Origin: an uncultured Pseudomonadales bacterium
GTDB taxonomy: Bacteria > Pseudomonadota > Gammaproteobacteria > Pseudomonadales > Azotimanducaceae
Direction: 5' to 3'
DNA length: 64,000 nt
NCBI GenBank assembly: GCA_958296165.1
Contig: OY282447.1
Location: 2,604,001-2,668,000 of the forward strand
In this document: positions 13,630 through 34,849 of the stretch, one piece after another
Position numbering within the stretch: the stretch's first letter is position 1
Layout: each line of letters opens with the position of its first letter
The notes under the pieces: generated by a model
What the model saw: only the letters and a program-made list of their open reading frames with translations
Told to the model about the DNA's origin: nothing
The model's database searches: none
Made by a program: the position numbers and the translations under genes

Positions 13630-14586
13630 GTGCAGCAGACGCCCTTCACCATTGACGCGGACTTCGACTTGAGCGAAGCCGCCGCACCCTGGTCCCGGGC
13701 GCACGGTGCCGATGTGGCCGTGCGCCGCGGCGCGGTGCCGTTGTCGCTGCCGCGTCCGGAATCGCGGGGAGTTGCCTGGCAACACGCCGCCGGCCGCACC
13801 TTGATCCTGACGCCCTGCGGTGTGCGCTTCCTCGTCGAGGGCGGCTCGACCATCCGCTACGCGCTCGATGGCGGTGCCTCGCTGGCGGACCTGCGGTTGT
13901 TCTTCCTGGGCACGGCGCTTAGTGTGCTGGCCGCGCAGCGTGGCCTGCTGCCCCTGAAGGCAAGCGCCGTTGCCAACGGCGAGGACGTGCATGCCCTCGT
14001 CGGCATGCCGATGAGGGGCAAGTCGGCCTCGGCGGCGGCGTTGGCCGCACGCGGCTATCCATTCTTCGCCGACGACCTGTTGATTCTCGATGCCAAGGGC
14101 TTGGATGCCGAGGCGCGCTGCTATCGCTGCGACGACCTGAAGGTGTGGCCGCAGGCGCTGGCGCTGGCGGACTGCGAGAGTCTAGGTCCCGTGCGCGGAA
14201 CTTCAAAGTACCGCAAACTGTACGCCATGCCGCGCCAAAGGGCGGCCCGAGTGTCGGGGCGCCTGCGAACCATCGTTTACCTGGCCAGCTTCAAGAAGGG
14301 CGATGCTTCCGGTGATCGCCACTCCACGCACTTGGAGCGGTTGTCGGGGAGAAAAAAAGTGGAAACGGTGATGACCACCATACACTCCCGGCCGATCACG
14401 ATTGCCGTCGTTGGGCACCGGCCGCTCTTTCAATGGGTCATGGCTTTGAGCCGTCGCGTGGAGATGCTGGGGCTCACCCGCCCCGAAATCCCGACGGTGT
14501 TCGGGGCCGGCGTCAACCGCATCGCCACGCTGCTGTCGGCAGCCGAGTCAGGCACCGTGCAGACGCGCAAGGGCGCGGCGCCATGA
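13630..14586 (+). CDS. HPr-kinase-like RiPP tailoring kinase, copy 1 (diverged active site)
   Basis: 318-residue relative of HPr kinase/phosphorylase as found in lasso-peptide clusters, where such enzymes phosphorylate the peptide. It starts at GTG 13630. The Walker A loop reads GMPMRGKS (125-132), which keeps GKS but loses the usual GPSGAGKST form. The family HASAV motif is KASAV (His to Lys at 110). The DD pair (148-149) is kept. Compared with copy 2 at 16344 it has lost typical residues and may be weakened, inactive or altered in specificity. Its stop overlaps the next ATG (ATGA), so it is translationally coupled to a sulfotransferase. Confidence 0.78.
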   Translation: MQQTPFTIDADFDLSEAAAPWSRAHGADVAVRRGAVPLSLPRPESRGVAWQHAAGRTLILTPCGVRFLVEGGSTIRYALDGGASLADLRLFFLGTALSVLAAQRGLLPLKASAVANGEDVHALVGMPMRGKSASAAALAARGYPFFADDLLILDAKGLDAEARCYRCDDLKVWPQALALADCESLGPVRGTSKYRKLYAMPRQRAARVSGRLRTIVYLASFKKGDASGDRHSTHLERLSGRKKVETVMTTIHSRPITIAVVGHRPLFQWVMALSRRVEMLGLTRPEIPTVFGAGVNRIATLLSAAESGTVQTRKGAAP

Positions 14587-15488
14587 TGCGGGCGCACCCG
14601 GTGTCCGGCCAACGGCGCATCGCCTGGTTGGCGAGCTACCCGAGGTCCGGCAACACCTGGACGCGCCTGCTGTTGGCGAACTTCCTGTCGGCGGCGGCCG
14701 AACCGGTAGGCGTCAACGACATCGGGAGTGCGATGTTCAGCGCCCTTTACCACGGCCGGCCGTGGTTCGACAGCGTGGCGGGCATCTCATCGTCGGACTG
14801 CACGGAGGACGAGGCCGAATCCCTGCGTCCGGCCGTTGTCCGATTCTGGGCCCAGGAGGCGAAGCGCGAGGAAACGCCGCTGTTCTGCAAGTCGCATGAA
14901 GCCTATCGCGACACCCCGGCCGGCGAGCCCTTGTTTCCGGACGACGTCACTGTCGGCGCTGTCTACTTGGTACGCAACCCGCTCGACGTCGCCGTGTCTT
15001 GGGCGTTTTACCTGGATGAGGGCTTCTCGCACAGCGTCGCCTATCTGAACGCACGGACGAGTCGCATCGGAGGCGCCGGAAGCCAAGAGCTTCGCCAGCG
15101 GCTGTTCGATTGGTCGGGCCACGTCGAGAGCTGGACGGGTGCGCCGTTTCCCGTGCTGACGGTGCGTTACGAAGACCTGCTCGCGGACACGGTTAGCTGG
15201 CTGGGCAAGATCGCTTCGTTCCTGCGCCTCGATGGCGCTTCCGACCACCGGCGGCTGGAGCAGGCCGTTGCCCACTCGGCCTTTGCGCGGCTGCAGGAGA
15301 ACGAAGACCGCGAAGGCTTCCATATGCGCGGTCAATACAGCCGGACCCCCTTCTTCCGCTCGGGCGTCGCCGGAGACGGGCGGCGGCATCTCTCGGCGGC
15401 ACAGGTGCGCGACGTCCTGGCCGCCCATGGGGCGACGATGGCGCGCTTCGGCTATTCATGTCGAGCTACTGGTCGAGCTACTGGATGA
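14583..15488 (+). CDS. PAPS-dependent sulfotransferase, copy 1
   Basis: 301-residue cytosolic-type sulfotransferase transferring sulfate from PAPS to a hydroxyl. The 5'-phosphosulfate loop is LASYPRSGNTWTR (about 15-27) and the 3'-phosphate motif is YLVRNPLDVAVSWAF. RYEDLLAD and the C-terminal half follow the family. The ATG at 14583 overlaps the kinase stop. Together they form a kinase-sulfotransferase pair repeated at 16344-18205; the two sulfotransferases align along their whole length with long identical blocks (TWTRLLLANFL, RNPLDVAVSWAF, DWSGHVESW). The substrate is most likely the RiPP peptide, by context. The last residues (SCRATGRATG) look less conserved than in copy 2. Confidence 0.85.
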   Translation: MMRAHPVSGQRRIAWLASYPRSGNTWTRLLLANFLSAAAEPVGVNDIGSAMFSALYHGRPWFDSVAGISSSDCTEDEAESLRPAVVRFWAQEAKREETPLFCKSHEAYRDTPAGEPLFPDDVTVGAVYLVRNPLDVAVSWAFYLDEGFSHSVAYLNARTSRIGGAGSQELRQRLFDWSGHVESWTGAPFPVLTVRYEDLLADTVSWLGKIASFLRLDGASDHRRLEQAVAHSAFARLQENEDREGFHMRGQYSRTPFFRSGVAGDGRRHLSAAQVRDVLAAHGATMARFGYSCRATGRATG

Positions 15489-15500
15489 AGAATATGGAGA

Positions 15501-15920
15501 TCACACCAGAAAGCCGAGCACATGCTCATGCCGGAACCGGCGGTACCAGCGGTTCCGGGTCGGTGTCTCCGGGAAGCTCGGCACGACCCGCCGCCAGCCG
15601 TTTTCCAGCAGTACCCGCTCGGCGGCCTGAAACGTTCGCGGCGCAACCAGCAGGTCGATGTCCCGCGCCATTCTCGCCAGCGGGTGCCCGTACAGGCGTT
15701 GGCTGAGCGGCAGGCCCTTGAGCACCAAACAGGGATGTCGGCGGCGGCAAGCAGGCCGGTCGCCCGTTTCAGCGCTACGATTTGGGCCAGTCCATGACGC
15801 ATGATCCGTTCGCGGATTCTCTTGAGCCCCGGCACCCTTCAAGCGGTTGCGCAGACCTGGTGCCAGCGCGGGTGTTTCTCGCATCTTCGCTGTCATCCAT
15901 TTGGGCAGTTCATTGCTCAT
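15501..15920 (-). pseudogene. Decayed copy of the nucleotidyltransferase (NTP_transf_5-like) segment
   Basis: The minus strand from about 15840 to 15514 is closely similar at DNA level to 24395-24076, the nucleotidyltransferase part of the B2 fusion gene. Both encode KRATGLLAAADIP, GLPLSQRLYGHPLAR, DIDLLV, RTFQAAERVLLENGW and NRWYRRF. Here the frame is broken near 15730, where GGGG of the intact copy is GGG. The reading that starts at 15920 (MSNELPKWMTAKMRETPALAP) enters the correct frame only after the break. Nothing of the remaining 350 residues, including the peptidase domain, is present. This is a truncated, frameshifted duplicate. Confidence 0.82.
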
Positions 15921-16343
15921 GGACGCAAATCAAGACACCTGCCCTCAACCCGACGCCGGTGTGCGCGGCGAAAAAGAGCCTCCGGCTGCACCGCCGACTG
16001 AACTTGGCCGGTCGTCTTGCGGGCGACCGCCTGAACGCCTGCAAAGCCGGAATCATGACCCGCTTCGTACCGTGCGCTGGGCGATGACGACACCATCCCC
16101 CAGCCAATCGCTTAGATACTTCTCGTCACCGCTTCGGGTGCGGTCGGATGTTGGCGATCACTTATATTCCGGACATCGAGGTCGAAGTGTTCTTCGCCCG
16201 GCCGAGTGATAACATTCTCCGTCGTTGAGGTTGTAGCCCTCTCATGCACGGAACTTGGCATGGTCGCGTCTGATGCGCTGGCGAACCGGACGGGAGTAGT
16301 CTGGGACGGCGTTCGCCACTCCCCCCCAGGGGCATGACGAGAC
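15921..16343. other. Spacer between the two kinase-sulfotransferase units
   Basis: 423 bases with only short, unconvincing ORFs in all frames. I recognised no domain, second precursor peptide or promoter of good quality. It may be degraded remains of the sequence once linking the duplicated units. Confidence 0.5.
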
Positions 16344-17327
16344 ATGCCGGTTTCTCCCCCCGTGGACATGGCGCAGGGCGCTAACCCGCACGAACGGACG
16401 GACGACGCGCCGCCGACGGTCCCTTTCACTATCGAAGCGGATCTCGATGTAGGCGCGGCTCTCGCTCCCTGGCTGCGGGCGTCCGGTGCCGACGTCTCCA
16501 TTCGGCGCGGCGACGTGCCAACGGCCCTTCCGGCCCCGGAGGCCGAGGGCGTCGTGTGGCAACATGCCAGCCGGCGGACCCTGTTCCTTCTCCCTTGCGG
16601 CGTGCGGTTCCTCATCGAAGACGGCCGGACGGTCCGCTACGCCATGGAACGCGGCGCGACGCCGCGCGACGTTCGGCCCTTCGTGCTCGGCAACGTATGG
16701 GGCGTCCTGGCCATGCAGCGTGGCCTGCTGCCGCTGCACGCGAGCGCCGTGAGCCGGGGGCCGGGCCTGCATGCGTTCACCGGTCCGTCGGGGGCGGGCA
16801 AGTCCACGCTGGCAGCGGCCCTGGCCCCGCGCGGATACCCGCTGTTCACCGACGACATATTGCTCGTTGACCCGGCCTCGTTCGATGCCGGGCCGCTGTG
16901 CTACGGCCACCGCACCCTGAGTCTGTGTCGGAAGAGTCTGGCGCTGATGGGAGTCGAGGCTGTGGCCCAGGTGCCCATGCGGCAGCGCCTCCCCAAGTGG
17001 TACGCCGTCCCCGCCCGTCAGGTGCCGCCGCGCGCAGGCCAGCTGCGAAGGCTGTACATCCTGTCGTACCGGAACAACGTCCCGGGCAGCCCCCCCTGTA
17101 GCGTCGAGCGGGTAACCGGCCGACTCGCGGTCCAAGCGCTGTGGGCCGCCGTCTACCATCCGCGGCAGGCGATCGCAATCATGGGACGCCGGCGCATTCT
17201 GTCGCTGTTGGTCGGCCTGGCCCAGGGCACGCGGGTGTCGATGTTCCACCGTCGGCGGTGCGACCCGGATGTGACGTGGTTCGCCGAAGACGTGACGCGC
17301 CTCGCCGCCGAGTTGGGGGCGCCATGA
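16344..17327 (+). CDS. HPr-kinase-like RiPP tailoring kinase, copy 2 (intact motifs)
   Basis: 327-residue HPr-kinase-like protein with canonical motifs: HASAV (His132), Walker A GPSGAGKST (147-155) and the DD pair at 170-171 (FTDDILLVDP). In characterised lasso clusters a kinase of this family phosphorylates the C-terminal serine of the precursor. Here the predicted precursor ends in Pro, so an internal Ser, Thr or Tyr would be the target. It aligns with copy 1 across its length (FTI-A-DLD, PCGVRFL, RGLLPL). The stop overlaps the start of sulfotransferase 2 (ATGA). The ATG at 16344 is chosen; one at 16368 is possible. Confidence 0.85.
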   Translation: MPVSPPVDMAQGANPHERTDDAPPTVPFTIEADLDVGAALAPWLRASGADVSIRRGDVPTALPAPEAEGVVWQHASRRTLFLLPCGVRFLIEDGRTVRYAMERGATPRDVRPFVLGNVWGVLAMQRGLLPLHASAVSRGPGLHAFTGPSGAGKSTLAAALAPRGYPLFTDDILLVDPASFDAGPLCYGHRTLSLCRKSLALMGVEAVAQVPMRQRLPKWYAVPARQVPPRAGQLRRLYILSYRNNVPGSPPCSVERVTGRLAVQALWAAVYHPRQAIAIMGRRRILSLLVGLAQGTRVSMFHRRRCDPDVTWFAEDVTRLAAELGAP

Positions 17328-18205
17328 CCGCCGGCCGGCAGCCCTTCGTCTGGCTCGCCTCCTATCTGAAGTCCGGCAACACCTGGACGCGGCTGCTGCT
17401 GGCGAACTTCCTTGCAGACTCCGAGCAGCCCGTGCCCATCAACGATATTGATACCGTGCTGCCGGGCTTCGGCCCGCATGATCGCCGCTGGTTCGACGAT
17501 GTAACCGGCTTGTCCTCGTCCGAATGCACCGACGACGAAGTCGAGTCGTTGCGCCCCGCCGCGCTGCGGGCGGTAGCCGCGGACGCCGCTGGCGAGCGGC
17601 AGTTCTGCAAGGTCCACGACGCCCTGCACGAAACGGCCGCGGGCGAGCCGCTGTTTCCGGCAGACGTCACCGCCGGCGCGATCTATCTGGTGCGCAATCC
17701 GCTCGATGTGGCCGTCTCCTGGGCGTTCCATGTCGGCCGCGCGAACTCTCCCGGGCTTGCCGAGATCGTGGCGCGGATGAACGATCCCCGAAGCACGGTG
17801 GCGGGCGGTTGCAGCCGTCAGTTGCGGCAGCGGCTGCTTGACTGGTCGGGTCACGTGGAGAGCTGGCGGGCCGCGCCGTTTTCGGTTCTCCTGGTGCGCT
17901 ACGAAGATCTGCTGGCGGACGCGGCCGGCCAGCTCGCGCGCATGGTCCGGTTCGCGGGGCTCGATGGCGCGGCCGACCGGCACCGTCTGCGGCGCGCGGC
18001 CGAGGCCACCGCCTTCCCCCGGCTGCAGGAGCAGGAAACGCGGCACGGCTTCCGGGAGAGCGACCCGCGCTGCCGGCGCTTCTTCCGTGCCGGCAGGTCG
18101 GGCGACTGGCGGCGGCATCTGAACGCGGCGCAGGCGCGGCAGATCACGCTTCACCACGGGCCGGCCATGCTGGCCTGCGGCTACGATCCGCGCGAGGCGG
18201 CATGA
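17324..18205 (+). CDS. PAPS-dependent sulfotransferase, copy 2
   Basis: 293-residue sulfotransferase. The phosphosulfate loop is LASYLKSGNTWTR and the 3'-phosphate motif YLVRNPLDVAVSWAFH; RYEDLLAD is also kept. The start at 17324 overlaps the kinase stop (ATGA); a longer in-frame reading from 17141 would lie over the kinase gene and has no family similarity. The stop overlaps the oxygenase start in the same way, so kinase 2, sulfotransferase 2 and oxygenase form one tightly coupled unit. Sulfation of the RiPP, on Ser, Thr, Tyr or a newly made hydroxyl, is inferred from context. Confidence 0.87.
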   Translation: MTAGRQPFVWLASYLKSGNTWTRLLLANFLADSEQPVPINDIDTVLPGFGPHDRRWFDDVTGLSSSECTDDEVESLRPAALRAVAADAAGERQFCKVHDALHETAAGEPLFPADVTAGAIYLVRNPLDVAVSWAFHVGRANSPGLAEIVARMNDPRSTVAGGCSRQLRQRLLDWSGHVESWRAAPFSVLLVRYEDLLADAAGQLARMVRFAGLDGAADRHRLRRAAEATAFPRLQEQETRHGFRESDPRCRRFFRAGRSGDWRRHLNAAQARQITLHHGPAMLACGYDPREAA

Positions 18206-19152
18206 TTACGATCCCCGCCGCGCTGGACGCGGGCCTGTTCGACAGGGCCGAGGCCACCCTGCTGCGGATGCTCGCGGCCGATCCGACCAACGCTCGGGCG
18301 CTGGCGCGGCTCGGCGACTTCCGGCGCGGGAGAGGAGACCTTGCGGGTGCCCTGGCGGCGTACCGGCGCCTGCGCGCCATTGCACCCGACGACGCGACGG
18401 CCGCGTGGTCGATCGCCGTGCTGGGCGGCACCCGGCTGCCGGACGCGGCACCGCCGGGCGGCCGGGCCGCGCCGTTCGTGCGGATGACGAACTTCCTGTC
18501 CTCCGCGGCGTGCGACCGGCTGCTGGCGGGAGTGTCGGCGGCGAGCGACCGGTTCGTTCCGGCGCAGGTGCGACGAAATGGGAACGGGATGGTGAACCGC
18601 AAGATCCGCATCGCTTCCTGTTCAGATGCGCGAATCAACCGGGACGTCCGATCCTGGTTCGTCCCGCAGCTGCGCGGCGTGCTGCCGGAAGTCCTGGGAC
18701 GGCTGCGGATGGAAGACCTTGACGTGGGACGCATCGAACTGGAAGTGACGGTCCATCGGCGCGGGGCCTTCTTCGCCACGCACCGTGACGGCGACACGGG
18801 CAACTTGCGATCGCGCAAGCTCAGCTACGTCTACCACTTCCACCGCGCTCCACGACCGTTCGTCGGCGGAGACCTGCTGCTCTACGACGATGCCGGCGGC
18901 ACGGGCGGCTCCGTCGCCTTCTCGCGAATCGACCCGCTCCGCGACAGCGTCCTGTTCTTTCCCGCCGACTGCATGCACGAGGTCACTCCCGTGGCGTTCG
19001 GCGACGGGCGTTTCACCGTCAACGGCTGGATTCACTCCCGACATGCTGCGGAAGGACGAAGGAAGCCGGTGACGCCGCAAGGTCAAACATCGAACGCCAG
19101 CGCCGGGGAAATCAAGATCAACCGCGAGCCGGTGGCGTCACCGCGCGTCTGA
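18202..19152 (+). CDS. TPR plus 2-oxoglutarate/Fe(II) dioxygenase (prolyl-hydroxylase type)
   Basis: 316 residues. The first 75 form a TPR-like helical repeat (LFDRAEATLLRMLAADPTNARALARLGDF...GDLAGALAAYRRLRAIAPDD). The rest is a prolyl-4-hydroxylase-type fold with the iron triad H194-x-D196 (ATHRDGD) and H259 (CMHEV), and the 2-oxoglutarate Arg270 (GRFTVNGW). It would hydroxylate a residue of the peptide, possibly creating a hydroxyl for the kinase or sulfotransferase. The ATG overlaps the sulfotransferase stop. It ends 62 bases before the precursor start. The low-complexity C-terminal tail after about residue 285 has no clear role. Confidence 0.82.
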   Translation: MITIPAALDAGLFDRAEATLLRMLAADPTNARALARLGDFRRGRGDLAGALAAYRRLRAIAPDDATAAWSIAVLGGTRLPDAAPPGGRAAPFVRMTNFLSSAACDRLLAGVSAASDRFVPAQVRRNGNGMVNRKIRIASCSDARINRDVRSWFVPQLRGVLPEVLGRLRMEDLDVGRIELEVTVHRRGAFFATHRDGDTGNLRSRKLSYVYHFHRAPRPFVGGDLLLYDDAGGTGGSVAFSRIDPLRDSVLFFPADCMHEVTPVAFGDGRFTVNGWIHSRHAAEGRRKPVTPQGQTSNASAGEIKINREPVASPRV

Positions 19153-19214
19153 ACGGATCAGGATGTTAAAGTGACTACCGAGTCGCAACCGAGACTCTAG
19201 TTGGAGGAATGGAT

Positions 19215-19415
19215 ATGCCCATCAACAACCCATCGGACGACACCCGATCCTCCATCCGGGAGAGGGGAGACCAGAAAGACGGAGCAGCTTCCGGGGAGGA
19301 GCGCAAGCAGCGCAAGCCGTGGACGCCGCCGAGGCTGGAGACGAACGGCGCCAGCGACATCGACGCCGGCACCGCTGCCAGCCATCAAGACGGTGTGACC
19401 AGCTACATGCCTTGA
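19215..19415 (+). CDS. Probable lasso-peptide precursor (66 residues)
   Basis: Small acidic/basic leader followed by a Gly-rich core. The start at 19215 is chosen because GGAGG (19203-19207) is seven bases upstream; the ATG at 19209 is only one base from it. Residues 35-41 (PWTPPRL) match the aromatic-xx-P-x-L element by which lasso leaders bind the RRE partner. The preferred core is GTAASHQDGVTSYMP (52-66): Gly1 and Asp8 could form an eight-residue macrolactam ring with a seven-residue tail. Starting one residue earlier gives an Ala1-Asp9 ring. Neither puts the common leader Thr at -2. It lies directly before the cyclase gene, overlapping it by four bases. Confidence 0.75.
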   Translation: MPINNPSDDTRSSIRERGDQKDGAASGEERKQRKPWTPPRLETNGASDIDAGTAASHQDGVTSYMP

Positions 19416-21424
19416 ATGCTGTCGCAGGCCCCACTTCGGCGCTGGCCGCGGTTTTCCTACGCGATGGCGGGTCGGTATCGAGGGAACGGGTCGCTTCCCT
19501 GTCCGCCGCGTTGCGCCCGTTCGGGAACTACGTCGACCTGTGGCGCGGCGGGTCGGAGGCCCTGATTCGGAGGGCTGATCGATCTCCCGCGGCGCGGGCA
19601 CCTGAAGACCGGCAACCCACCGCCGCCGGAGACGGAAGCCTGATCCTCTTCGCCGGGTTCCTCAGCCACCGCGACGAGCTGGCTGGCGCGTTGCGCCTTC
19701 CCCCCGGCGACACGGCCCGGCAATCCGACAGCGCCCTGTTCGCCCGTGCGTGGACGCGGTGGGGCCGCGACGCCGTGGGGCGGGTGGACGGCGAGTTCGC
19801 CGTCGTGGTCTGGGACCGTCCCGCCCGGACGCTCGTCGCCGCCTGCTCCCCTTGGGCGGCACCGCCCTTGTGCTTCCACGTGAACCGCCGCCGCGCCGTC
19901 GTCGCCACCGCCCCCCGTGGCGTCTTCGGCTGGGGCGACCTGGCGCGGCGCCTGGACGACGAGCGGTTGTCCAACTGCCTGATCGGCCACCACGGCGACC
20001 CGCGCCGCACCTACTACCGGGATGTGCTCAACCTGCTGCCCGGCGAAATGCTGACGGTCACGCCCGAAGCGCACGACATCCGCCGCTACCACAGTCCGGT
20101 GGCGGCGGGCCGGCCGGATCGGGTAGCGGCCGAGTACGTTGAAGAAGCCCGGCACCGGTTGCGCGAGGCGGTGCGGGACGCGCTTTGCTCGCCGGAGCTT
20201 CCGGCCATCCTGCTCAGCGGCGGCTTGGACTCCCCGGCCGTCGCCGTCACCGCCCTTGAAATCCTGGCCGAATCTCCGACGCACCAGTCCGCGACACTGC
20301 TCTCGTTCACATCCCACCCGGAGCCGGATTGGGACGGCCGTGCGCCCGAGAACCGGAGCGGCGACGAACGGCCGCTGGTGCGCGAGCTGGCGGCGCGGTA
20401 CCCGGCGCTCGACATCCGGTTCGTGGACGCGGCGGGCCTCGGCTTCGACCACCGGTTGGAGCAGACAATCGCTTTGGCCGAGGTGCCGCCACGCAATGTG
20501 GGCAATCTGGTCTGGATCCACGAATCCTTGCGCACGGCGCGCACGGCCGGCCGGCGGGTGGTACTCGGTGGCGACTCCGGCAACTTGACGCTCTCGCTGA
20601 CCGGCCAGGAACGTCTGGCGGAGCTGTTGGGCACCGCCCGCCTACGGGAGCTGCGGCACGCCGTAGGGCCGTTCACGGGACGTTCGGTGCGATCTCTCCT
20701 CCGTCACGCGCTGCCTTGGCTGCCGCCGCTATTCCAGCGGGCCGTCCTGCGCCGCTTGGGCGCGCCAGTGGCGATGCCACCGCCCTTCAGCGCCATCCAC
20801 CGCGGCTACGCACGCACGACGCGGCTGGCCGAACGCGCCCGGGCGCAAGCGTTTGGGCCGTATCGGCCGCTGCCGAGATCCTTGCGCGAGAGTCAACTGC
20901 TCGGCTTGACGTCCCCCATCCGGCAAGGCGACGGCCGGGCCGTGATGTGGGCGCTCAAGACCCTGCACGGCGTCGCGCTGCGTGACCCGCTGGGCGAGGG
21001 CCGGCTGGTGGAATCGTGCCTGGGCATGCCCGGCGAGCAGTTCTTTGATCGCGGCCGTCCGCGGCTGCTGATCCGCCAGCTCCTGCGCGGCCGCGTACCG
21101 CCCGCGTTCCTGTCCGCGCCCCGGGGCCTGCAGGCGGCGGACTGGCACGTGCGCTACACCCGCGCGCTGCCGCGCATCCGCGAGACGCTGGGCGACTGGC
21201 GCCACGACCCCGCGGTGGCCGAGCGTCTCGACCTCGACCGTCTGTTGCGGTTGGTCGATACGTGGCCGGCCAAGACGCCCCTGAGCGCTCGCGACCACCC
21301 CGAGTTCAGGCTCGCCCGGACGGGCCTCGGCCGCGCCCTCGCCGCCGGAACGTTCATCCGCTGGGTCGAACGGGGGTACGAGCAGGCACCGCCGGACGAA
21401 ACGGCGACCGAGGGAACAGCCTGA
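19412..21424 (+). CDS. Lasso-peptide cyclase (asparagine-synthetase B-like, protein C)
   Basis: 670 residues from the TTG at 19412, which overlaps the precursor stop (TTGA); this gives the expected N terminus (SALAAVFLRDGG). An N-terminal glutaminase-like domain lacks the catalytic Cys, as in lasso cyclases. The ATP-pyrophosphatase loop is SGGLDS at 269-274, with LGGDSGNLT downstream in place of the typical GGDE-like block. In lasso pathways this enzyme adenylates the ring Asp/Glu side chain so that the N-terminal amine attacks it. A longer frame from 19319 overlaps the precursor and is rejected. The stop is about 40 bases before the PqqD-like gene. Confidence 0.88.
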   Translation: MNAVAGPTSALAAVFLRDGGSVSRERVASLSAALRPFGNYVDLWRGGSEALIRRADRSPAARAPEDRQPTAAGDGSLILFAGFLSHRDELAGALRLPPGDTARQSDSALFARAWTRWGRDAVGRVDGEFAVVVWDRPARTLVAACSPWAAPPLCFHVNRRRAVVATAPRGVFGWGDLARRLDDERLSNCLIGHHGDPRRTYYRDVLNLLPGEMLTVTPEAHDIRRYHSPVAAGRPDRVAAEYVEEARHRLREAVRDALCSPELPAILLSGGLDSPAVAVTALEILAESPTHQSATLLSFTSHPEPDWDGRAPENRSGDERPLVRELAARYPALDIRFVDAAGLGFDHRLEQTIALAEVPPRNVGNLVWIHESLRTARTAGRRVVLGGDSGNLTLSLTGQERLAELLGTARLRELRHAVGPFTGRSVRSLLRHALPWLPPLFQRAVLRRLGAPVAMPPPFSAIHRGYARTTRLAERARAQAFGPYRPLPRSLRESQLLGLTSPIRQGDGRAVMWALKTLHGVALRDPLGEGRLVESCLGMPGEQFFDRGRPRLLIRQLLRGRVPPAFLSAPRGLQAADWHVRYTRALPRIRETLGDWRHDPAVAERLDLDRLLRLVDTWPAKTPLSARDHPEFRLARTGLGRALAAGTFIRWVERGYEQAPPDETATEGTA

Positions 21425-21453
21425 TCATGGACTCGATCCGAATGCTTCGACTA

Positions 21454-21459
21454 TATAAT
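21454..21459 (+). promoter_or_regulatory. Possible -10 element before the PqqD-like gene
   Basis: A perfect TATAAT at 21454-21459, with no convincing -35 at the right distance. If used, transcription would start near the ATG at 21468 and give a leaderless or nearly leaderless mRNA. It may be chance in an A+T-rich patch. Confidence 0.3.
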
Positions 21460-21467
21460 CTGTGGCC

Positions 21468-21770
21468 ATGGCACTGGAGTTGACCAGCCGCGTACGGCGC
21501 ACGACCGGAGACTTCGTCGACGTTTCGGTGGACGGCGAACTGGTGTTCATGAACGTTCTGGAAATGCGGTTCCACAGCCTACGGGACACCGGCCTGCGGG
21601 TCTGGCAACTCCTTGACGGCGACGAAAGCCCGGTGACGGTGGGCACCGTCGTCGCGGCGCTGTGCGAGGAGTTCGAGGTCGACGCGGACACCTGCCTGCG
21701 GGACATGGCGGTTCTGCTGCAGGAACTTCAGGAAGCCGGTCTCGTCGAACTGGAGGGCGAGGCCACCTGA
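21468..21770 (+). CDS. PqqD-family RiPP recognition element (lasso protein B1)
   Basis: 100-residue PqqD-like protein (winged-helix RRE) that binds the leader and delivers the precursor to the B2 peptidase. The start is the ATG at 21468 ([12 protein letters not shown]); a GTG two codons upstream is possible. Family features are the beta strands around [33 protein letters not shown] and the helical C terminus ([20 protein letters not shown]). It stands alone on the plus strand, while the B2 partner is fused to a nucleotidyltransferase on the minus strand. The decayed exporter gene overlaps its 3' end on the opposite strand. Confidence 0.88.
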
Positions 21771-22849
21771 CGCGGAACAGGTGGTCCGGTGACCCGGCCG
21801 GATTTCAGCCGCACGATCCCGTCCGCCGCTTCCAGCAGGGCGGGACGGTGGGTGATGGCGACGATGGTCGTGTGTCCCCGCAACGATTTTCAGCGCTTCG
21901 AGGATCTGCCGCTCGTTCTCCGCGTCGAGTTGACCCGTTGCTTCGTCGAGCACGAGCAGGGCCGGGCTTCTCATCAGCGCCCGCGCCAGGGCGGTCCGCT
22001 GGCGCTCGCCGCCGGAGAGCCGCCCGCCCCGGTTGCTGGTGACGGTGTCCAGCCCCGTCGGGCAGGGCGGTGACAAATCCGTCGGCGGCGGCTAGGCGCA
22101 ACGCCTGCCACATCTCCACGTCCGTGGCGCCGGGCTGTGCCCACCGCAGGTTCGTCCGTATGGTGTCGTGAAACAGGTGAGGGTCTTGGGGAACGCAGGC
22201 AACGGAGCGCCGCCAGCGGTGCAGGTTCGCTCCGGCCAGGGGCACGCCGTCAACGCACGCCTCGCCCTCGCTGGGCGCGAGTAGACCGAGCAGGACGTCT
22301 GCCAGCGTGCTCTTGCCAGCCCCGGATGGCCGGCGATCACCGTCATCTTGCCGGCGGGGATATCCAAGCTAACATTCTTCAGCGCCGGCCCGGCGACGCC
22401 GGCCGCCGTTCCGAACCCAGCCTCGGACCCGGGTTCCGTCGCGGTCCCGCGACCAAGCAGGGCTTCGGCCCCGATTCCGTATTCGGCTCCGGCCTGGTAG
22501 GTGAACGAAGCGTCGCGCACCGTCAGCGCGCTGTGCAGCTCCATGCGCGGGCCGCCTCCGAGACGGGGCTTTCCCCACCGGGCCGCGCGGCGAAACCGAC
22601 CATGTGCAGAAGGGGAATGATCATGAGGAGGCCGAACGCCTCGGTCACCCCGGCGGCCAGCAACAGCGGCAGCGCCAGGACGCTCTTGCGCGGCGCATAG
22701 GCGATCAGGGCGTCCGCGAGTCTCCCCGCCTCGGCGAAGATGGCGGGAGAACCGCTCGACCGGCTGGAGCGCGAACCCGATGGTTCAAAGCGGCGGTCCG
22801 ACGGGCCGGGCGGTGGGCCGGCCTCATCCCCTTCGCCCCGAATGTTCAT
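21728..22849 (-). pseudogene. Decayed ABC exporter (fused permease/ATPase) of the RiPP island
   Basis: The start ATG at 22849 overlaps the stop of the B2 gene (ATGA). The first membrane region (ALPLLLAAGVTEAFGLLMIIPLL) is present, then most of the membrane domain is missing and the frame changes near 22540. The ATPase domain is recognisable but broken by three single-base indels. One lies at the Walker A loop (C run 22320-22323; restoring a base gives GHPGAGKSTL), one at 22053-22056 before [14 protein letters not shown], and one near 21871-21876 before [24 protein letters not shown] (Walker B) is intact. Four lesions in about 1.1 kb make this a pseudogene. Confidence 0.85.
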
Positions 22850-24618
22850 CCGGGCCGCGGGCCGATACCGCCGAACGGAGGCAGCGCCGCGTACGTCTCG
22901 ACCTCGCCCGCCCCGATCACGCACTCCCCGCCGACGGTCAGCCAGGCGTGGAAGTCCAGCCCCGAATCCTGCGCCTTGCGGCGGGCGCCGAAGACGAGGC
23001 GGCTCGAGACCCCGCGGCGGCGCAGCATCCACTGCAGCGCCATGGCCTGCGGCAGGCACACGGCCGGAAACGGCACGTGGCGGGCGACCCTTCGCACGAT
23101 GCGCGCCACCCTTCGGGGAAGCCGCCGCGGCGGTGCGTACGCCGGATGTTCACCGGCGGGTGCCGGTCCTTCGGGATCGCCGGCGGAGGAAGCAACGTGC
23201 GAGTCCGCCGGCGGTCGGCCGGTCGGCGCCGGTTCTTCCGCCGTGGCCAGCCAGCGCCGCCAGCGGCGCACCGGCGCATGCGCGACGAGCAGCCGCGCCA
23301 GGAGCAGGAACAGCGTCGCTTCCAGCGCCATCGCCTTGGCCGCAACGGGCGCTCGGACAAAAGCGCGGACGGCTTTCGCGGATTGCCCGAAGCGGAGATC
23401 CGCCCGTGCGGTCGCGGCAGGAGGCGCGCTCCGGCCGCCCTTCCTCCTGGTCGCCCAGAGCAGCGGACGCAGCGGGAAGTACAGGTAGAACAACCGGTCG
23501 GGGAGGTCGAGCCTCCCCCAGTCTTGCGGGCCGACGAACACGCTCGCGATCTCGTGCAGGATGGTCCTCGAATGGGGCTTGGCGATCAGCCTGACCACCT
23601 TCTGCCCGGCCCAGTCAAAGCCGCCACTTGAACGGGCGGCGTCTTCTTCACGCCAGGTCCGTTCTGAAAAACGGGCGATCCAGGCAGCTCGTCTTCCACC
23701 GGCGGGAAACGGCGCCGCACCGCGCGGAAGCCGGACGTGGAGCGCTGCCCCGCACAGCAGCAGCGTTGAGGCGAGGATGCTCGAAAGCCCCACTTGCCGG
23801 CACCGCGCCGACACCCGTTCGAAGCGCTCGGGGCCCATGGATGCGAGGACGACCGCCACGTCGCACAGCCAGACGAGTCTCGTCCAGTAATGCCTCGCGC
23901 CGTGGCACATCAGGTACAGGAGTTCATCCTCCTGCCCCAGGGTTCTGAACGAAAGCGCGCCGATCTCCACTTGGACACTGCCCACAAGGAGCCTCTCGAA
24001 AGGCACATCGATATAGAAGGGGTTAGTCGACAGGCGCCAGTGCAGCTCCAGCAATCCGCCGGGGCCGGCGAGCGTATGATCATGTTGGAACCTGCGGTAC
24101 CAGCGGTTGCGGGCCGGTGTCTCAGGGAAACTCGGCTCGACCCGCGACCAGCCGTTTTCCAGCAGTACCCGCTCGGCGGCCTGAAACGTTCGCGACGAAA
24201 CCAGCAGGTCGATGTCCCGAGCGCTTCTCGCCAGCGGGTGTCCGTACAGGCGTTGGCTGAGCGGCAGACCCTTGAGCACCAGACAGGGGATGTCGGCGGC
24301 GGCAAGCAGGCCGGTCGCCCGTTTCAGCGCTGCGACCTGGGCCAGCCCGCGACGCACGGTCCGTTCGCGGATTCTCTTGAGCCTCGGCTCGACGCCGGAG
24401 TCGGAGACGGAGGCCAGACCGGCGGCTCGGGCCTGCATCCCTCGCAAGAGCAGGGACGCCACCCGGTGGCGCCGCGCGAGCGCGGCGACGGCGTTCCAGT
24501 CGTCGACCCGGGAGAGTGCCTCTAGGTCGGCTTCCGGGTCGCCGGCCCCCACCCCGAGGCCGAGGCGCAGCCCCGCGAGCAGGCCCTCCAAGGGCGCGGT
24601 GACGGGCGGAGGCGTCAC
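22846..24618 (-). CDS. Nucleotidyltransferase fused to lasso-type transglutaminase-like peptidase (B2)
   Basis: 590 residues. The N-terminal half is a nucleotidyltransferase of the NTP_transf_5 type: DIPCLVLKGLPLSQRLYGHPLARSARDIDLLV (the DxD metal pair), then LLELHWRL and LMCHGARHYW. The C-terminal 150 residues match the transglutaminase-like leader peptidase of lasso clusters: Cys521 in PFPAVCLPQAMALQWMLRRRG and His557 in DFHAWL. The usual third acidic residue after HAW is not evident. A Pro/Ala-rich linker near 440-475 joins the two. It would cut the leader and perhaps nucleotidylate the peptide. It is transcribed opposite to the rest of the cluster. Confidence 0.82.
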   Translation of the reverse strand: MTPPPVTAPLEGLLAGLRLGLGVGAGDPEADLEALSRVDDWNAVAALARRHRVASLLLRGMQARAAGLASVSDSGVEPRLKRIRERTVRRGLAQVAALKRATGLLAAADIPCLVLKGLPLSQRLYGHPLARSARDIDLLVSSRTFQAAERVLLENGWSRVEPSFPETPARNRWYRRFQHDHTLAGPGGLLELHWRLSTNPFYIDVPFERLLVGSVQVEIGALSFRTLGQEDELLYLMCHGARHYWTRLVWLCDVAVVLASMGPERFERVSARCRQVGLSSILASTLLLCGAALHVRLPRGAAPFPAGGRRAAWIARFSERTWREEDAARSSGGFDWAGQKVVRLIAKPHSRTILHEIASVFVGPQDWGRLDLPDRLFYLYFPLRPLLWATRRKGGRSAPPAATARADLRFGQSAKAVRAFVRAPVAAKAMALEATLFLLLARLLVAHAPVRRWRRWLATAEEPAPTGRPPADSHVASSAGDPEGPAPAGEHPAYAPPRRLPRRVARIVRRVARHVPFPAVCLPQAMALQWMLRRRGVSSRLVFGARRKAQDSGLDFHAWLTVGGECVIGAGEVETYAALPPFGGIGPRPG

Positions 24619-24862: not shown

Positions 24863-27800
24863 ATGCTGTTCGGACATCCGGCCTCGCTGCTGCGCCGCCG
24901 AGAGGCGTTGCCGACGTCATTGATCGCCGTTGCGTTTTGGGGATTGGCGTTCGCAACGTTGACCAACCTGAGGTATCTCCCGCTTCGGGGGCTGCCCGAG
25001 TTCGAGGCCATGGTGGCCAAGGCGACGATGGCGTTCGTCGCGGTGTTGTTGGGCTTGGTCGCGGTGCGCAGCGTGATCGCTTGGCGGAAGTCTCGTTCAT
25101 TCGCCCCTATCCGGAGGACGCTTGGCGAAACGCCCGGCATGTTGCTGTTGGGCGCGGTGGCGTCGTATCTGGCAATCGGCGCCTTGGCGCTTGGCGCCGA
25201 AGCGATGCGGGAACCGGCTGCATTGGACCGCTTGAAGTATCAACTCCTCCATTTCGGCGTGCTCGTGGCTGCCGTGACGGGCGGCTGGGCGGCGTTGGAA
25301 CGAGTCGGGGCGCAGCGGCTGTTGCAGGGCGCGCTCTTCATCCTGATTCCGGCCTGCGTCGTCATTCTCGCTTCGCCGCTCCTGCGCGACCTCGGAGTCC
25401 TTTCGCCTTACCGAATTCCATTTCGTCTGACCGGCGTTTTCGTCGATCCCAACGAAGCCGGCTTACCCGCTTGCATGACGGTGGCACTCGCCATGGCGCT
25501 GCTGATCCATGGCGGATCGCGCAAGCTCGGCTGGCTGGGCCTGGCCGCCGGCGTCGCCGCGAGCCTGGCGACGGCGTCCCGGACCGCTCTGGTCGTACTC
25601 GGCGTGCTGATGGTCGTGTTCGCGGGGATCAATTTCCGCGGCAAACGGAGCACTTTCGTCCCGGTCCTGGCCTTGGCATTGTTCGCCGTTGCAGGATTCA
25701 TCGGAGTTGCGTTCATTTCTGGCGGTCTAATCCACTGGTCGAGCCTTCGATCCAGCCCTGCCGCCCCGCAGGAAGTGGGCACGTCCTGCGACCTCTCGCC
25801 AACCCACAGCGCCAGCGCAGACTGCGCTGTCCTGCTGGCAATAGAGGACACCCTAGCCGGCGACGTTGCCCTGAATTGGAGTCCTGCCGTACCTTTGAAC
25901 CGCTGGCAGGGCGTAACCATGGACGGCCCGGATAACCGCGTCACCAGGCTGCTTCTGCCGGGACTAGGACTGAACGGCCGCATCCCACCGGAGCTTGGCA
26001 ACTTGGATCGCCTCGTTTCTCTGGCCGTTCAAAGAAATCGGCTCACCGGTTCCATTCCACCCGAGTTGGGCAATCTGGCAAGCCTTCAGATACTGAACTT
26101 AAGCTACAACGACCTGACCGGGACCATCCCGCCAGAGCTGGCTCGGCTGCCTCAACTCCGGCAGCTATGGCTTAGACACAACCGTCTGGCGGGCCCAGTT
26201 CCAGCCGCTCTCGGAGATCTCGAACTGCAGGTGCTGCGGCTCAGCGGCAACGACATCCACTCCGTGCCCGCCGGACTTGCCACCTACCACGATCTGGCCG
26301 CCATGCGAATCTGCGCGCCGCTGCCGCCAACGAACGCGGCGCTGTTCAACGACTGCACGGCGCTGCTCGAAGTGAAGGACGCGCTGGCCGGCGACGTGCC
26401 GCTCAACTGGCACGCGGAGGTACCCATCGGTGAGTGGCAAGGCGTGGCCGTAGGCGGTCCGCAAGAACGGGTAGTGGAACTTGACCTGTACGAGAAAGGG
26501 CTGCGCGGATACATCCCGCCCGAGCTGGGCAGGCTCGATGGTCTCGTCGACTTGAATCTGGCCGCCAATCGGCTCACCGGGCCGATTCCGCCCGAGCTGG
26601 GGCGCCTCGTCAACTTGCGTCATCTGAGTTTGGACAGCAACGCTCTGACCGGCACCATTCCCGCGGAACTGGGACAGCTCGGCCAGCTCGAGTCCTTGTG
26701 GCTGAGAGACAACCACTTGAGCGGCCCTGTTGCGTCCGCCGTGATCCAGATTCCCGACCATGATCTCAGCCATCTAGAGTTGTGCCAGCAGCCCGCGCCC
26801 CCCGTGCCAACCCTGTTCGAGGACTGCACCCTCCTGCTGGCGGCAAGGGAGACGCTGGCTGGCGAGGCCGAACTCAACTGGCACGCAGCCCGGCCGATCA
26901 GCGAATGGCAAGGCGTGGTCGTGGGCGGCACGCCGAGCCGGGTGATCGCGCTCAACCTGGAGTCGATGGGGCTCGCCGGACGCATTCCGCCGCAGCTCGG
27001 CAGCCTGCCTGGCCTGCAGTGGCTGAACCTGTCCGCCAACGAGCTCACGGGTCCGGTTCCGGCAGAGTTGGCGCAATCCGTTCCCTTGCGCGACATATTC
27101 CTGGATGGCAATGCCCTGACGCGCTCCGACCCACCCGAGCTGTTCGATGTCCAGCGCAGGATTCCGCGAGACACCTCGACGGAGTCTTCAGATCGGCCGG
27201 CCCGCTCCGCGATGGCCTCTACAACAGTGGTTTGCCGGCTACCGCCGCTCAGCAGCTCCGCGTTGTTCGACGACTGCCGTCTGCTGTTGGCGATGCAAGA
27301 CACGCTGGCCGGCAGCGCGTCGCTCAACTGGAGCGCGACCCTGGTGCCGGGCGAATGGCAGGGCGTCACCGTGGGAGGTCCGGAAAGTCGCGTCGTGCGG
27401 CTGGAACTGCCCCGCATGGGGCTGAATGGGCGAGTTCCCGCGGCCTTGGGTCAGCTCGCCGGGCTGCGGTCGCTGGTGCTCGACGGCAACCAGTTGATCG
27501 GCGCCATTCCGCCAGAACTGGGGAAGTTACGCGATCTGGATACTCTCGGGCTCGCTGACAACGCGCTGACTGGCCCCATCCCGCCGGAACTGGCGTCGCT
27601 GTCTAGCCTCAAGGAACTCTGGCTGAGCGGCAACCACATCACCAGTAACTCCCTTCCGCCCGAACTACGTTCGGTGGCCAGGCAGGACATGCCCTGCCCC
27701 GCCGCTCCCGCCGACAATCCCGGATTGCGGGCCGATTGCGCGGTCCTGCTGGCGGCCCGGGATGTTCTCGCCGGCACCGGCCGGCTCAACTGGAGCGAGC

Positions 27801-30800
27801 GCATCCCCATCGAGTTCTGGCAAGGCGTCACTGTCGGGGGCTCCATGGGACGCGTGACGAAGCTCGAACTGCCAGACTCAAGCCTGAACGGGCGCATTCC
27901 GCCAGCGCTGGGACGATTGCTCCAACTCGTGTCGCTGGATCTGAGCCGCAACCAGCTCACCGGCCCGCTGCCTCCCGAACTGGGGGAGCTCACCAACCTC
28001 GAGAACCTGCGGCTCTCCTTCAACGCCCTGCGCGGCCCGATTCCCCCGGAACTCCGAAAACTAAGAAATCTGAAAGAGTTGTGGCTGTGGAACAAGCGCT
28101 TGAGCGGCGTCGTGCCGGTGCAACTCGACGACTTCGTCATGCTCGACAGTGTGCGGAATCGTCCGTCGTTCGGCGACCCCAAAACGCCCGCAGTGGCGTC
28201 CCGCGACGCGAGCGAAGATCGCCCGGGCGCGGTCAGGCGGCTGTTCTGCCGCCGCTCTCCCCCATTTCCCGCTAGCGCCGATCTGCACGCCGACTGCGCC
28301 CTGCTGCTGGCGAGCAGAGACCTCCTGGCCGGCGAAGCATCGCTCAACTGGAGCGAGGACATCCCCATCGAGTTCTGGCGCGGCGTCACCGTCGCGGGGG
28401 TGCCGCCGCGGGTGACGGCCCTGGAGTTGCCGCGCGCGGGACTGAACGGGCGTCTGTTCGCCGAGTTGGGAGACTTGCGCGGCCTCGTCGCTCTGAACCT
28501 GAGTCACAACCGGCTCGCCGGGCCCATCCCGCCGGCGCTGGGTGGACTGGAACATCTCGTCTCGCTGCGCTTGGAAGGCAACCGGCTCGCCGGCCCTGTG
28601 CCTCGGGAACTGGGAGGGCTCGACAATCTCGCTTTTCTGAGCCTCGCCGACAACGACTTGGACAGACCCTTTCCGCCGGCGCTGCATGAGATCGACGACC
28701 ATGACCTCGACGCACCGGTCTTCTGCCGACCGAGGAAGATCGATCCGGGCCTGCTCGCCGATTGCACCCTCTTGCTGGCGGTGCGCGACGTCCTGGCGGG
28801 CGACGCGCCGCTCAACTGGAGCGAGGCGGTGCCCGTCGATGACTGGCTGGGCGTCGTCACGGACCGTTCGCGCGGCCGCGTGACCGCGCTGGACCTGACG
28901 CAAATGGGGTTGAACGGGCGCATCCCCGCAGAGTTGGGGCAGCTTGCCGGGCTCGTCTCCTTGCGCCTGGGACGCAACCGGCTAGCTGGCAGCATCCCGC
29001 CCGAGCTCGGCAGCCTCGGCGCCCTGCGCATGTTGGCCTTGGACCGCAATCTCCTGGCCGGTCCCATACCGCCGGAGCTGGGCCAGCTGTCGAGCCTCGC
29101 GGACCTGTGGTTGCAGGGGAACCGCCTGATCGGTCCCCCACCTCCTTCGGTAGCCGACCTGCCCAAGCTGACCCTGTTGCGCCTAGACGACGCCGCGGCT
29201 GCGGAACCGCCGCCGGCGCCGGATACGCGCGTCGGCCACGGCGGGTTTCGCAACAGGAACCTGTTCTGCCGGCCATCCCACGCGACGATCTGGCCCCTGC
29301 AGGGCGACTGCACCACTTTGCTGACCGTGCGGGACGTGTTGGCCGGCGACGTCGAACTGAACTGGAGCGACGAAATACCCATCGACTACTGGCGCGGCGT
29401 CACCGTTGGCCCTTCATCCTTCACCAGTGACTCGACCAGTGACTCGCAGCGCATCATCGCCCTGGATCTTTCGCACGCGGGACTGAACGGGCGGATTCCC
29501 CCCGAACTGGCGGCTTTGGACGCGCTTGCGGTGTTGGGGCTCGGCCACAACCGGCTTGAAGGATCCATCCCGCCGGAACTGGGCACCCTGACCGAACTGC
29601 GAACGCTGAGTCTGGAGAATAACGCGCTGACCGGCCGAATCCCGTGGGAGCTGGGCAAGTTGTATAGCCTCGTTTCGCTGCGTCTCGGGAACAACGAGCT
29701 CACCGGTCGTGCGAAGTGGTTCACTAACCTCGCCAAGCTGCGCACGTTCGCGGTCGAGAACGCCGGCCTGCGGGGTGAAATCGATCCGCAGATCGGCACT
29801 CTGCAGCACTTGGAAGAGCTGCGGCTCGACAACAATCGCCTGCACGGAAGCATCCCCAAGGCGCTGGAGGGATTGAATCGCCTTGTGATCCTTCGCCTGG
29901 GCGGCAACGCGTTTCCCTACTGCGTCCGAACTACGTCGCCGCTGGCGCAAGTACGGGACAACGATCTGGAATCGGCCGATTTGCTCTGCGAGACGCCGCC
30001 TTGGCGCAAACTGGACCTGTTCGAGGACGGCGCGCGTCTGATGCAGATGCGCGACACCCTAGCCGGCGATGCCGTGCTGAACTGGAGCTATACGCGGCCC
30101 GTGGCCTCCTGGCAAGGCGTGCAAGTCGGACCAAGCGGCCGCATCGTCTCTTTGGACTTGCGGGACATGAACCTGACCGGACGGATCCCAGCGGAGCTGA
30201 GCGAACTGAGCCATCTCAACCTGGTGCGGCTCGGCCGCAACCGACTCGCCGGCGCCATTCCGCCGGAACTCGGAAAATCGCCCCGTCTGATCACGCTGTC
30301 GGCCGGCGGCAATCTTCTCGCCGGCCCCATCCCGCCCGAGATCGGCAATCTGTTGAATCTCCGGCGGCTGTGGCTGGCCGACAACCGCCTCGCCGCTCCC
30401 ATCCCCATCGAATTGGCCAAAATCCCGCGTCTGTCGTTGGCCGTCGCCGGCAACGACTTCCACAACTGCACGCACCATGAGCTGAAACATCTGCGCAGCC
30501 ACGACTTCGACGAACGTGCCATCTGCGCTGCCGCTGATCTGGCGAGGGAGGGGGCTGCGGATAGACTGTTGCTTTGGAAGCTGGGTTTCGAGAAGGCCAT
30601 GGAGGCGCCCCTCCTTGGTCATGGCTTTGGGGCGTTGGAATCCATGGACGGCGCCCCCTTCGGTAACGACGGTCGACCGCTCGGCCCCCACAACTTGTAC
30701 CTGACCTTGCTGGGCGAGGCGGGCATTGTCCCTCTGCTGCTGTTCGTATCCGCCATCGTCCTGCTGCTGCGTGCGCAGTGGGCCGCGCCCAAGTCCGTCG

Positions 30801-34623: not shown

Positions 34624-34849
34624 AACCGGGGAAGTCCTTTTCGCCCAACCGATGCGGCGCAGTCTACGCCCTTTGGACATCGCCGACAAACCAACCGGGC
34701 AGGGCCATAAAGGAGGTTCGGGCAGACTCTTCGGATCTGCCTCGTCCGCCGGTTCATGGTCGCCTGCGCACCCACCGCGGCACATTTGGTGAACCATCAA
34801 CCAGTACGAGCAGTTGACTCGCAGCCTCGATTGAGTAACGGTTGCCGCC
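34624..34849. other. Divergent promoter region of ftsK and the ABC exporter pair
   Basis: 226 bases between divergent starts. It must carry promoters for both units. No sigma70 pair with good spacing stood out, and no gene was seen. Confidence 0.4.

Follow-up and report, generated by a model that had tools for sequence, protein, structure and literature searches.

A gene cluster of the lasso-peptide type lies at positions 13630-24618 of the window, the whole 64,000-nucleotide stretch of DNA analyzed here (positions 2,604,001-2,668,000 of contig OY282447.1, from the single-contig, 5.07 Mb genome of an uncultured Pseudomonadales bacterium). The plus strand carries, in order, genes for an HPr-kinase-like protein and a sulfotransferase (K1, S1), a second such pair (K2, S2), a 2-oxoglutarate (2OG) oxygenase (Ox), a precursor peptide (A), a cyclase (C), and a recognition element for ribosomally synthesized and post-translationally modified peptides (RRE of RiPPs; B1). 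A transporter gene (D) and a nucleotidyltransferase–B2 leader protease fusion (N-B2) follow on the minus strand (Table 1). An initial annotation, made from the sequence alone, had described a lasso-type cluster with kinase, sulfotransferase, and hydroxylase tailoring. Profile searches found every protein family it claimed at its place, the kinases through weak HprK_rel_A matches, and the sequence bears out the four-base overlaps it described, which occur at four points: K1/S1 (14583-14586), K2/S2 (17324-17327), S2/Ox (18202-18205), and A/C (19412-19415), where the TTG start codon of C overlaps the stop codon of A. To these parts we add the nucleotidyltransferase fused to B2, a broken ATP-binding cassette (ABC) transporter gene, and a nucleotidyltransferase relic between S1 and K2.

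Lasso core genes, precursor, and tailoring enzymes

Several observations support a genuine lasso-type biosynthetic cluster. Among the profile checks that had been proposed, B2 passes the curated NCBIfam cut-off of its lasso family (NF033537, 64.6 bits versus 33), and the best matches of C and B1 are also lasso models, at scores below their cut-offs. C scores better as a lasso cyclase (NF033535, 2e-39) than as an asparagine synthetase (AsnB; TIGR01536, 2e-19); the sole solved structure related to it by sequence is 7ylz, a hydroxyamidotransferase. Grouping of C with ordinary asparagine synthetases had been named as an outcome that would speak against a lasso cluster. In a 61-row cyclase tree, built by a quick method with only Shimodaira–Hasegawa-like approximate likelihood ratio test support, C instead stands apart from the main asparagine-synthetase group, which holds seven of the nine AsnB rows and one C of genome G262 (locus L024, at 16623). 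It falls within starred groups together with cyclases of other lasso loci that pair a kinase with a sulfotransferase (K-S loci), its nearest row outside the window's family being L082 (genome G1127). Two further AsnB rows, L155 and L158, form a separate long branch apart from the other AsnB rows, perhaps through a wrong choice of the longest open frame.

The precursor carries the leader motif WTPPRL, of the YxxPxL type bound by RREs, and the proposed core, AGTAASHQDGVTSYMP, follows SDID and has Asp at position 9 under the cut proposed below. We favor the start at 19215, as a Shine-Dalgarno-like GGAGG precedes this second ATG. Conservation in related clusters, another check that had been called for, is borne out by homologous precursors in two related genomes, at locus L017 (OY282433.1, genome G1129) and in genome G013 (OY282460.1). 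Across the three, the leader hardly differs up to SDI, the residues that follow vary, and HQDGVTSYMP is shared by all. In the alignment, the junction is SDID (window), SDIN (L017), SDIG (G013), SDVE (L082, which in the cyclase and sulfotransferase trees alike is closest among the rows outside the family), and QDVE (genome G346). We infer a cut after SDID, which would place Ile at leader position −2. Thr occupies −2 in previously reported lasso precursors, a paeninodin-type trait that A does not share at the presumed −2 position; BsfA has Ile there, with cleavage demonstrated by experiment, which makes Ile at −2 plausible here (PMC10368454).

The likely modified residues are less easily read from the precursor. 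PadeK, ThcoK, and SyanK phosphorylate a C-terminal Ser (PMC9266682), a paeninodin-type trait absent from the precursors of the window, L017, and G013. Because the window's precursor ends in SYMP, the phosphosite would have to lie elsewhere, and Thr11 and Ser12 of the tail and the Ser ahead of HQD are conserved in the window, L017, and G013. We rejected core position 3, the site in BsfA, because the residue there varies among Thr, Asn, and Pro in these three. Tyr as a universal sulfation site, suggested by precursor tails at sister loci of the genus, was likewise rejected, Tyr being present in only 5 of 21 K-S cores outside the family. Within the genus, further K-S and cyclase loci lie at L014-L016 (G013:C1:3396000-3444000) and, in the window's own genome, at L013 and L075; some of their cyclase matches are split over frames, and their precursor-like open reading frames (ORFs) are of the W[AST]KP[TV]I type and carry a Tyr close to the C-terminus.

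K2 shows the complete kinase motif (H132, G147, G150, G152, K153, S154, D170, D171), matching the His, three Gly, Lys, Ser, and two Asp of BsfK at equal spacing. It has no PDB sequence match at E 0.1; its AlphaFold model (predicted local distance difference test score 88.4) resembles PEPCK and HprK/P structures with good E-values and TM-scores of at most 0.47 by query length. K1 keeps GKS and the Asp pair; Lys replaces the conserved His, and Met replaces the second P-loop Gly. Both changes are common to G013, and G346, which belongs to another genus, has the Lys plus further P-loop changes in a K1 that is 85% identical to the window's. Given this shared Lys and a ratio of nonsynonymous to synonymous substitution rates (dN/dS) of 0.24 versus G013, K1 is conserved yet probably altered in catalysis.

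Both sulfotransferases retain the residues invariant among lasso sulfotransferases in a 24-row alignment (SGNTW, K-x-H, and R124). The best PDB matches of S2 are Teg12, Teg14, and StaL by sequence and Teg12 by fold. All three are sulfotransferases that modify glycopeptide antibiotics; the title of the Teg12 entry names teicoplanin aglycone. The genome encodes adenosine 5′-phosphosulfate kinases, so a supply of the donor 3′-phosphoadenosine 5′-phosphosulfate (PAPS) is plausible. Ox combines a 2OG-Fe(II) domain with tetratricopeptide repeats (TPRs), as seen in Pfam, and from this domain a hydroxylation like that of CanE is predicted.

Table 1. Features of the lasso-type cluster in the window
Feature	Position	Strand	Description
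K1	13630..14586	+	HPr-kinase-like protein
S1	14583..15488	+	PAPS sulfotransferase; Pfam Sulfotransfer_1 7e-19
Relic of nucleotidyltransferase gene	15515..15833	-	Two frames; 90% identical to 24069-24388
K2	16344..17327	+	HPr-kinase-like protein, complete motif
S2	17324..18205	+	PAPS sulfotransferase; Pfam Sulfotransfer_1 2e-20
Ox	18202..19152	+	Pfam TPR + 2OG-FeII_Oxy_3
A	19215..19415	+	Putative lasso precursor, 66 aa; ORF listing starts 19209
C	19412..21424	+	Putative lasso cyclase, asparagine-synthetase-like; TTG start; Pfam Asn_synthase + GATase_7
B1	21468..21770	+	PqqD-like RRE; Pfam PqqD (PF05402) 5e-16
D	21743..22849	-	Broken ABC transporter gene
N-B2	22846..24618	-	NTP_transf_5 (8e-54) fused to Transglut_core3 B2 leader protease (PF13471, 2.5e-21)

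Kinase–sulfotransferase pairs across genomes

To place the two K-S pairs in a wider setting, an alignment of four sulfotransferases was searched against 369 class-level and 398 phylum-level genomes, of which 6 and 21 gave matches at E 1e-20, and a B2 model against 390 order-level genomes, 15 of which gave matches, and 398 phylum-level genomes, of which 45 did. Of the 61 places from the phylum-level B2 scan, 51 were covered; the G153 place of the order-level B2 scan and weak partial sulfotransferase matches in G459, G493, and G795:C28 were left out. Sulfotransferase genes no farther than 7.5 kb from a match to lasso C, B1, or B2 number 36, and every one has a kinase match within 200 bp, on the same strand in 35 cases. 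Ten of these genes belong to the window's own family, and some of the others are near-copies (L080/L081, L022/L025, and L032/L033). Nine other sulfotransferase loci were found: in the eight without lasso genes in the stretch examined, no kinase match was present (0/8), and the ninth, L148, lies on plasmid pTM1 of Tistrella mobilis. There, two precursor-like ORFs (6400-7165) adjoin a kinase-sulfotransferase pair. No cyclase was found in this 18.8 kb stretch; one acting in trans is possible, as pTM3 of the same strain has one.

A 62-row tree separates these enzymes from other sulfotransferases. A supported branch (98/99) sets apart all 37 rows labeled lasso, L148 included, together with L034 and L020 (the L020 row is identical to that of L153); the remaining rows, 8 bacterial and 15 viral, lie outside. 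S1 and S2 both belong to the supported lasso group, each with an adjoining kinase gene. Among the viral sulfotransferase loci from IMG/VR, 40 of 41 showed no C, B1, B2, or kinase match above 60 bits; the exception, L034, carries a cyclase.

A cyclase match was obtained at 50 loci, of which 33 have both kinase and sulfotransferase, 15 a kinase only, and 2 neither. These frequencies are biased, as the sample was partly drawn by sulfotransferase, and the 50 represent loci near the window's type, since many B2 loci gave no cyclase match above 200 bits. Given the 36/36 count and the 15 kinase-only loci, the sulfotransferase in this sample goes with the kinase, and not the reverse. A 2OG match is present at 8 of the 50, all of which also have kinase and sulfotransferase: six belong to the window's family, and two are alphaproteobacterial plasmids, of Hyphomicrobiales UR115 and T. 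mobilis (pTM3). The initial annotation had called its combination of modifications unusual. This holds in part: the K-S pair recurs in many lasso loci and is already in print, as a remark that some lasso clusters contain an HPr kinase and a sulfotransferase (PMC4289311) and in a review noting sulfotransferase genes and nucleotidyltransferase–B2 fusions (PMC8498205), while kinase, sulfotransferase, and 2OG enzyme together are uncommon yet recurrent in the sample.

Precursor candidates were compared by their last residue, which the motif score ignores. Ser ends 19 of 21 candidates at 19 K-S loci outside the family and 6 of 16 at 14 kinase-only loci. Not among the 21 are the family loci: the window, L011, and L017 (Pro), L014 (Asn), L153 (Leu), L152 (Ser), L016 (two, Ser), and L075. 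Also outside are L076, L077, L080, and L081, with no credible candidate, and the plasmid loci L148-L151, whose credible candidates end in Ser. The kinase-only 16 exclude L013, from the window's own genome; L117, L123, L113, and the second candidate of L135 are low-scoring.

The plasmid loci offer a comparison outside the family. On a plasmid of Thalassobaculum sp. OXR-137 (NZ_CP139716.1) and on pTM3, an adjoining kinase and sulfotransferase occur with lasso C and B1 genes; the Thalassobaculum locus also has B2, D, and a nucleotidyltransferase, whereas the pTM3 stretch gave no B2 match. The pTM3 and UR115 loci share the 2OG gene with the window. In contrast, the window has two K-S pairs and the N-B2 fusion, and its precursor ends in Pro where the credible plasmid candidates, picked by eye from motif ORFs, end in Ser.

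Single open frames spanning kinase and sulfotransferase domains occur in opposite orders at L014 (1744-3711, minus strand, 656 aa) and L075 (6292-8541, plus strand, 749 aa). They are candidate gene fusions at most, given a possible internal start in L075, and were not counted as evidence.

Probable transfer and signs of decay

From K2 through B1, the window shares 95-97% identity with L017/G013. Synonymous divergence (dS) from these relatives is 0.02-0.08 for K2, S2, Ox, C, and B1 and 0.05-0.12 for the precursor. By comparison, rpoB shows 79% (G013) and 74% (G1129) identity over its longest matches, with dS of about 0.75 and 0.96, values that are approximate because whole open frames were used with 60 codons trimmed per end. 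The flanks at 5098-8977 and 32266-36688 match G013/G1129 at roughly 65-79% over longer matches, the first of them at many places, and a comparison of 8001-33000 found no match for 8001-13439 in L017 or L018. The simplest reading of the contrast between the K2-B1 block and rpoB is a recent horizontal transfer of that block. The cluster has apparently passed between genomes that are only distant relatives.

All of K1, S1, K2, S2, Ox, A, C, B1, and N-B2 are open frames, with dN/dS of 0.11-0.89 (values without a significance test). D is open at L017 and at L012, a second locus of the window's own genome, where the intact D is accompanied by an N-B2 that shares 91% identity with that of the window; L012 may provide processing and export in trans. 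A rival explanation would make the cluster a decaying or inactive mobile remnant, its genes open only because it arrived recently. The broken D, the nucleotidyltransferase relic, and the loss of the conserved His from K1 all fit such a remnant, and a recent arrival would have left little time for decay, with dN/dS resting on few changes. Nevertheless, the nine frames remain open at the ratios given above, the Lys of K1 is common to another genus and hence is not fresh decay, and the genome retains intact copies of D and N-B2. We consider inactivity unlikely.

Proposed pathway and competing explanations

We think it likely that the window encodes a lasso peptide tailored by K2, S2, probably S1, and Ox. 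The order of steps and the residues involved would be as follows. The B1 RRE would bind the WTPPRL leader, and the tailoring enzymes would act on the linear precursor: K2 would phosphorylate a Ser or Thr, S2 and probably S1 would sulfonate a hydroxyl with PAPS as donor, and Ox would hydroxylate one residue. The B2 domain would then cut after SDID, and C would form an isopeptide bond between Ala1 and Asp9, the resulting ring encircling the GVTSYMP tail. Like PsmN, the nucleotidyltransferase portion of N-B2 may build on the phosphate. K1 probably serves S1 as a scaffold or as a partner with weak catalytic activity, and the product may be exported by the transporter whose intact copy lies at another place in the genome. 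The suggestion in the initial annotation that the product could be hydroxylated, phosphorylated, and sulfated is sound as far as the genes go, which are open, have dN/dS below 1, and recur elsewhere as K-S and K-S-2OG sets; it is tempered by the lack of a C-terminal Ser, the altered K1, and the broken transporter.

Several results weigh against this pathway. C and B1 fall short of the cut-offs of their best lasso models (NF033535, 135.6 bits versus 525; NF033536, lasso_PqqD_Bac, 47.3 versus 80), and K2 and K1 match HprK_rel_A weakly (38.9 and 22.2 bits versus 200). The ring-closing Asp or Glu of lasso peptides lies at positions 7-9 (PMC10368454). In G013, one inserted codon in the ring moves Asp to position 10 as long as cleavage remains after SDIx, and with the junction held fixed the Glu of G346 likewise falls at 10; either the cut is shifted there, the ring has 10 residues, or our assignment is mistaken. 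The last residue of the precursor is Pro, against Ser in nearly all K-S candidates outside the family, and the scarcity of Tyr in those cores weakens any assignment of the sulfated residue. Precursor dN/dS versus L017 is 0.89, close to neutral, and D lacks about 0.85 kb internally and has frame changes that break the transporter. Finally, at L034, a contig end outside the 36 counted genes, a cyclase and a sulfotransferase occur with no kinase in the 7.8 kb examined.

Characterized systems provide partial precedents. The paeninodin, ThcoK, and SyanK clusters share the split B1/B2, C, an HPr-kinase-like tailoring kinase, and an ABC transporter (PMC8498205, PMC9266682); the window differs by adding sulfotransferases and a 2OG oxygenase, by its presumed Ile at −2, and by having no C-terminal Ser. 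The Bradymonas bsf cluster shares Ile at −2, the H-G-G-G-K-S-D-D spacing of K2, and a nucleotidyltransferase gene, and its RRE aids both kinase and protease (BsfA/BsfK/BsfB1); however, BsfK phosphorylates core Ser3 (PMC10368454), a position held by Thr, Asn, or Pro in the window, L017, and G013. The word "sulfotransferase" is absent from the main text of that paper. Pseudomycoidin's psm cluster shares the kinase and nucleotidyltransferase, with nucleotidyltransferase–B2 fusions in related clusters, but its phosphosite is a C-terminal Ser, and the available portions of the sources ascribe no sulfotransferase or 2OG oxygenase to it (PMC9266682, PMC8498205). For Ox, the precedent is CanE of canucin A, a 2OG-Fe(II) enzyme whose substrate is the linear precursor and which the RRE assists; CanE hydroxylates a C-terminal Asp, whereas the window's tail ends in Pro and Ox carries TPR repeats (PMC9266682).

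We found no sulfated lasso peptide or characterized lasso sulfotransferase in the open-license literature, including the available part of PMC12670498, a scope that could miss a subscription report. A 2026 review (PMC13352647) contains no word starting "sulfo" and has "sulfat" once, in a reference.

An explanation we judge about as improbable as inactivity is that kinase and sulfotransferase have different targets, the latter decorating a hexose or other small molecule and not the peptide. Tyr is not conserved in K-S cores, and the structures closest to S2 are those of Teg12, Teg14, and StaL, enzymes that modify glycopeptide antibiotics. The nucleotidyltransferase partner suggests a phospho-glycan handle, with pseudomycoidin as the model (PMC8498205, PMC9266682). 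On the other side, 17 of 28 K-S loci gave no nucleotidyltransferase match within 6 kb of the lasso genes in the limited stretches available, and in one locus after another the sulfotransferase gene is found alongside those for kinase, RRE, cyclase, and precursor. A RiPP that is not a threaded lasso (a branched cyclic peptide or large macrolactam with a ring of 10 in some relatives, or a product cut one residue on) seems more doubtful still: it would account for Asp/Glu at 10 in G013 and G346 with the D[IV]x junction fixed and for the sub-cut-off score of C, yet the cyclases with which C groups have precursor candidates that yield ordinary rings of 8-9 residues (e.g., L082, L024), and for the precursors of the window and L017 the ring comes to 9 residues.

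Building on the tailored lasso pathway, we tentatively raise a bolder possibility, one we would sooner expect to fail than to hold: these loci may make lasso peptides doubly marked with phosphate and sulfate by an obligate K-S relay, in which the sulfotransferase acts solely on the phosphorylated precursor or beside it. In the window's lineage, K1 would have turned into a non-catalytic partner that presents the substrate to its sulfotransferase, the 2OG enzyme would add a third mark, and rings could extend to 10 residues (e.g., G013). The 36/36 pairing and the supported sulfotransferase group turn an old bioinformatic remark into a testable question, that of sulfotransferase dependence on the kinase product. 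The window's natural variants, namely the missing C-terminal Ser, the altered K1, and the 2OG enzyme, can discriminate between models, and the cluster and its relatives make lasso sulfation chemistry directly testable.

Two minor observations concern the surroundings of these loci. Near the G013 lasso loci lie two similar genes (IGIQTF...YYVDKTAHI), at L014 9818-11431 and L015 6413-7984. Downstream of the window's cluster, 24863-30958 (plus strand) encodes a 2031-aa protein in which many leucine-rich repeats precede an O-antigen-ligase (Wzy_C) sequence close to the end; homologues adjoin the N-B2 loci L012 and L015 and also occur near the L011 cluster.

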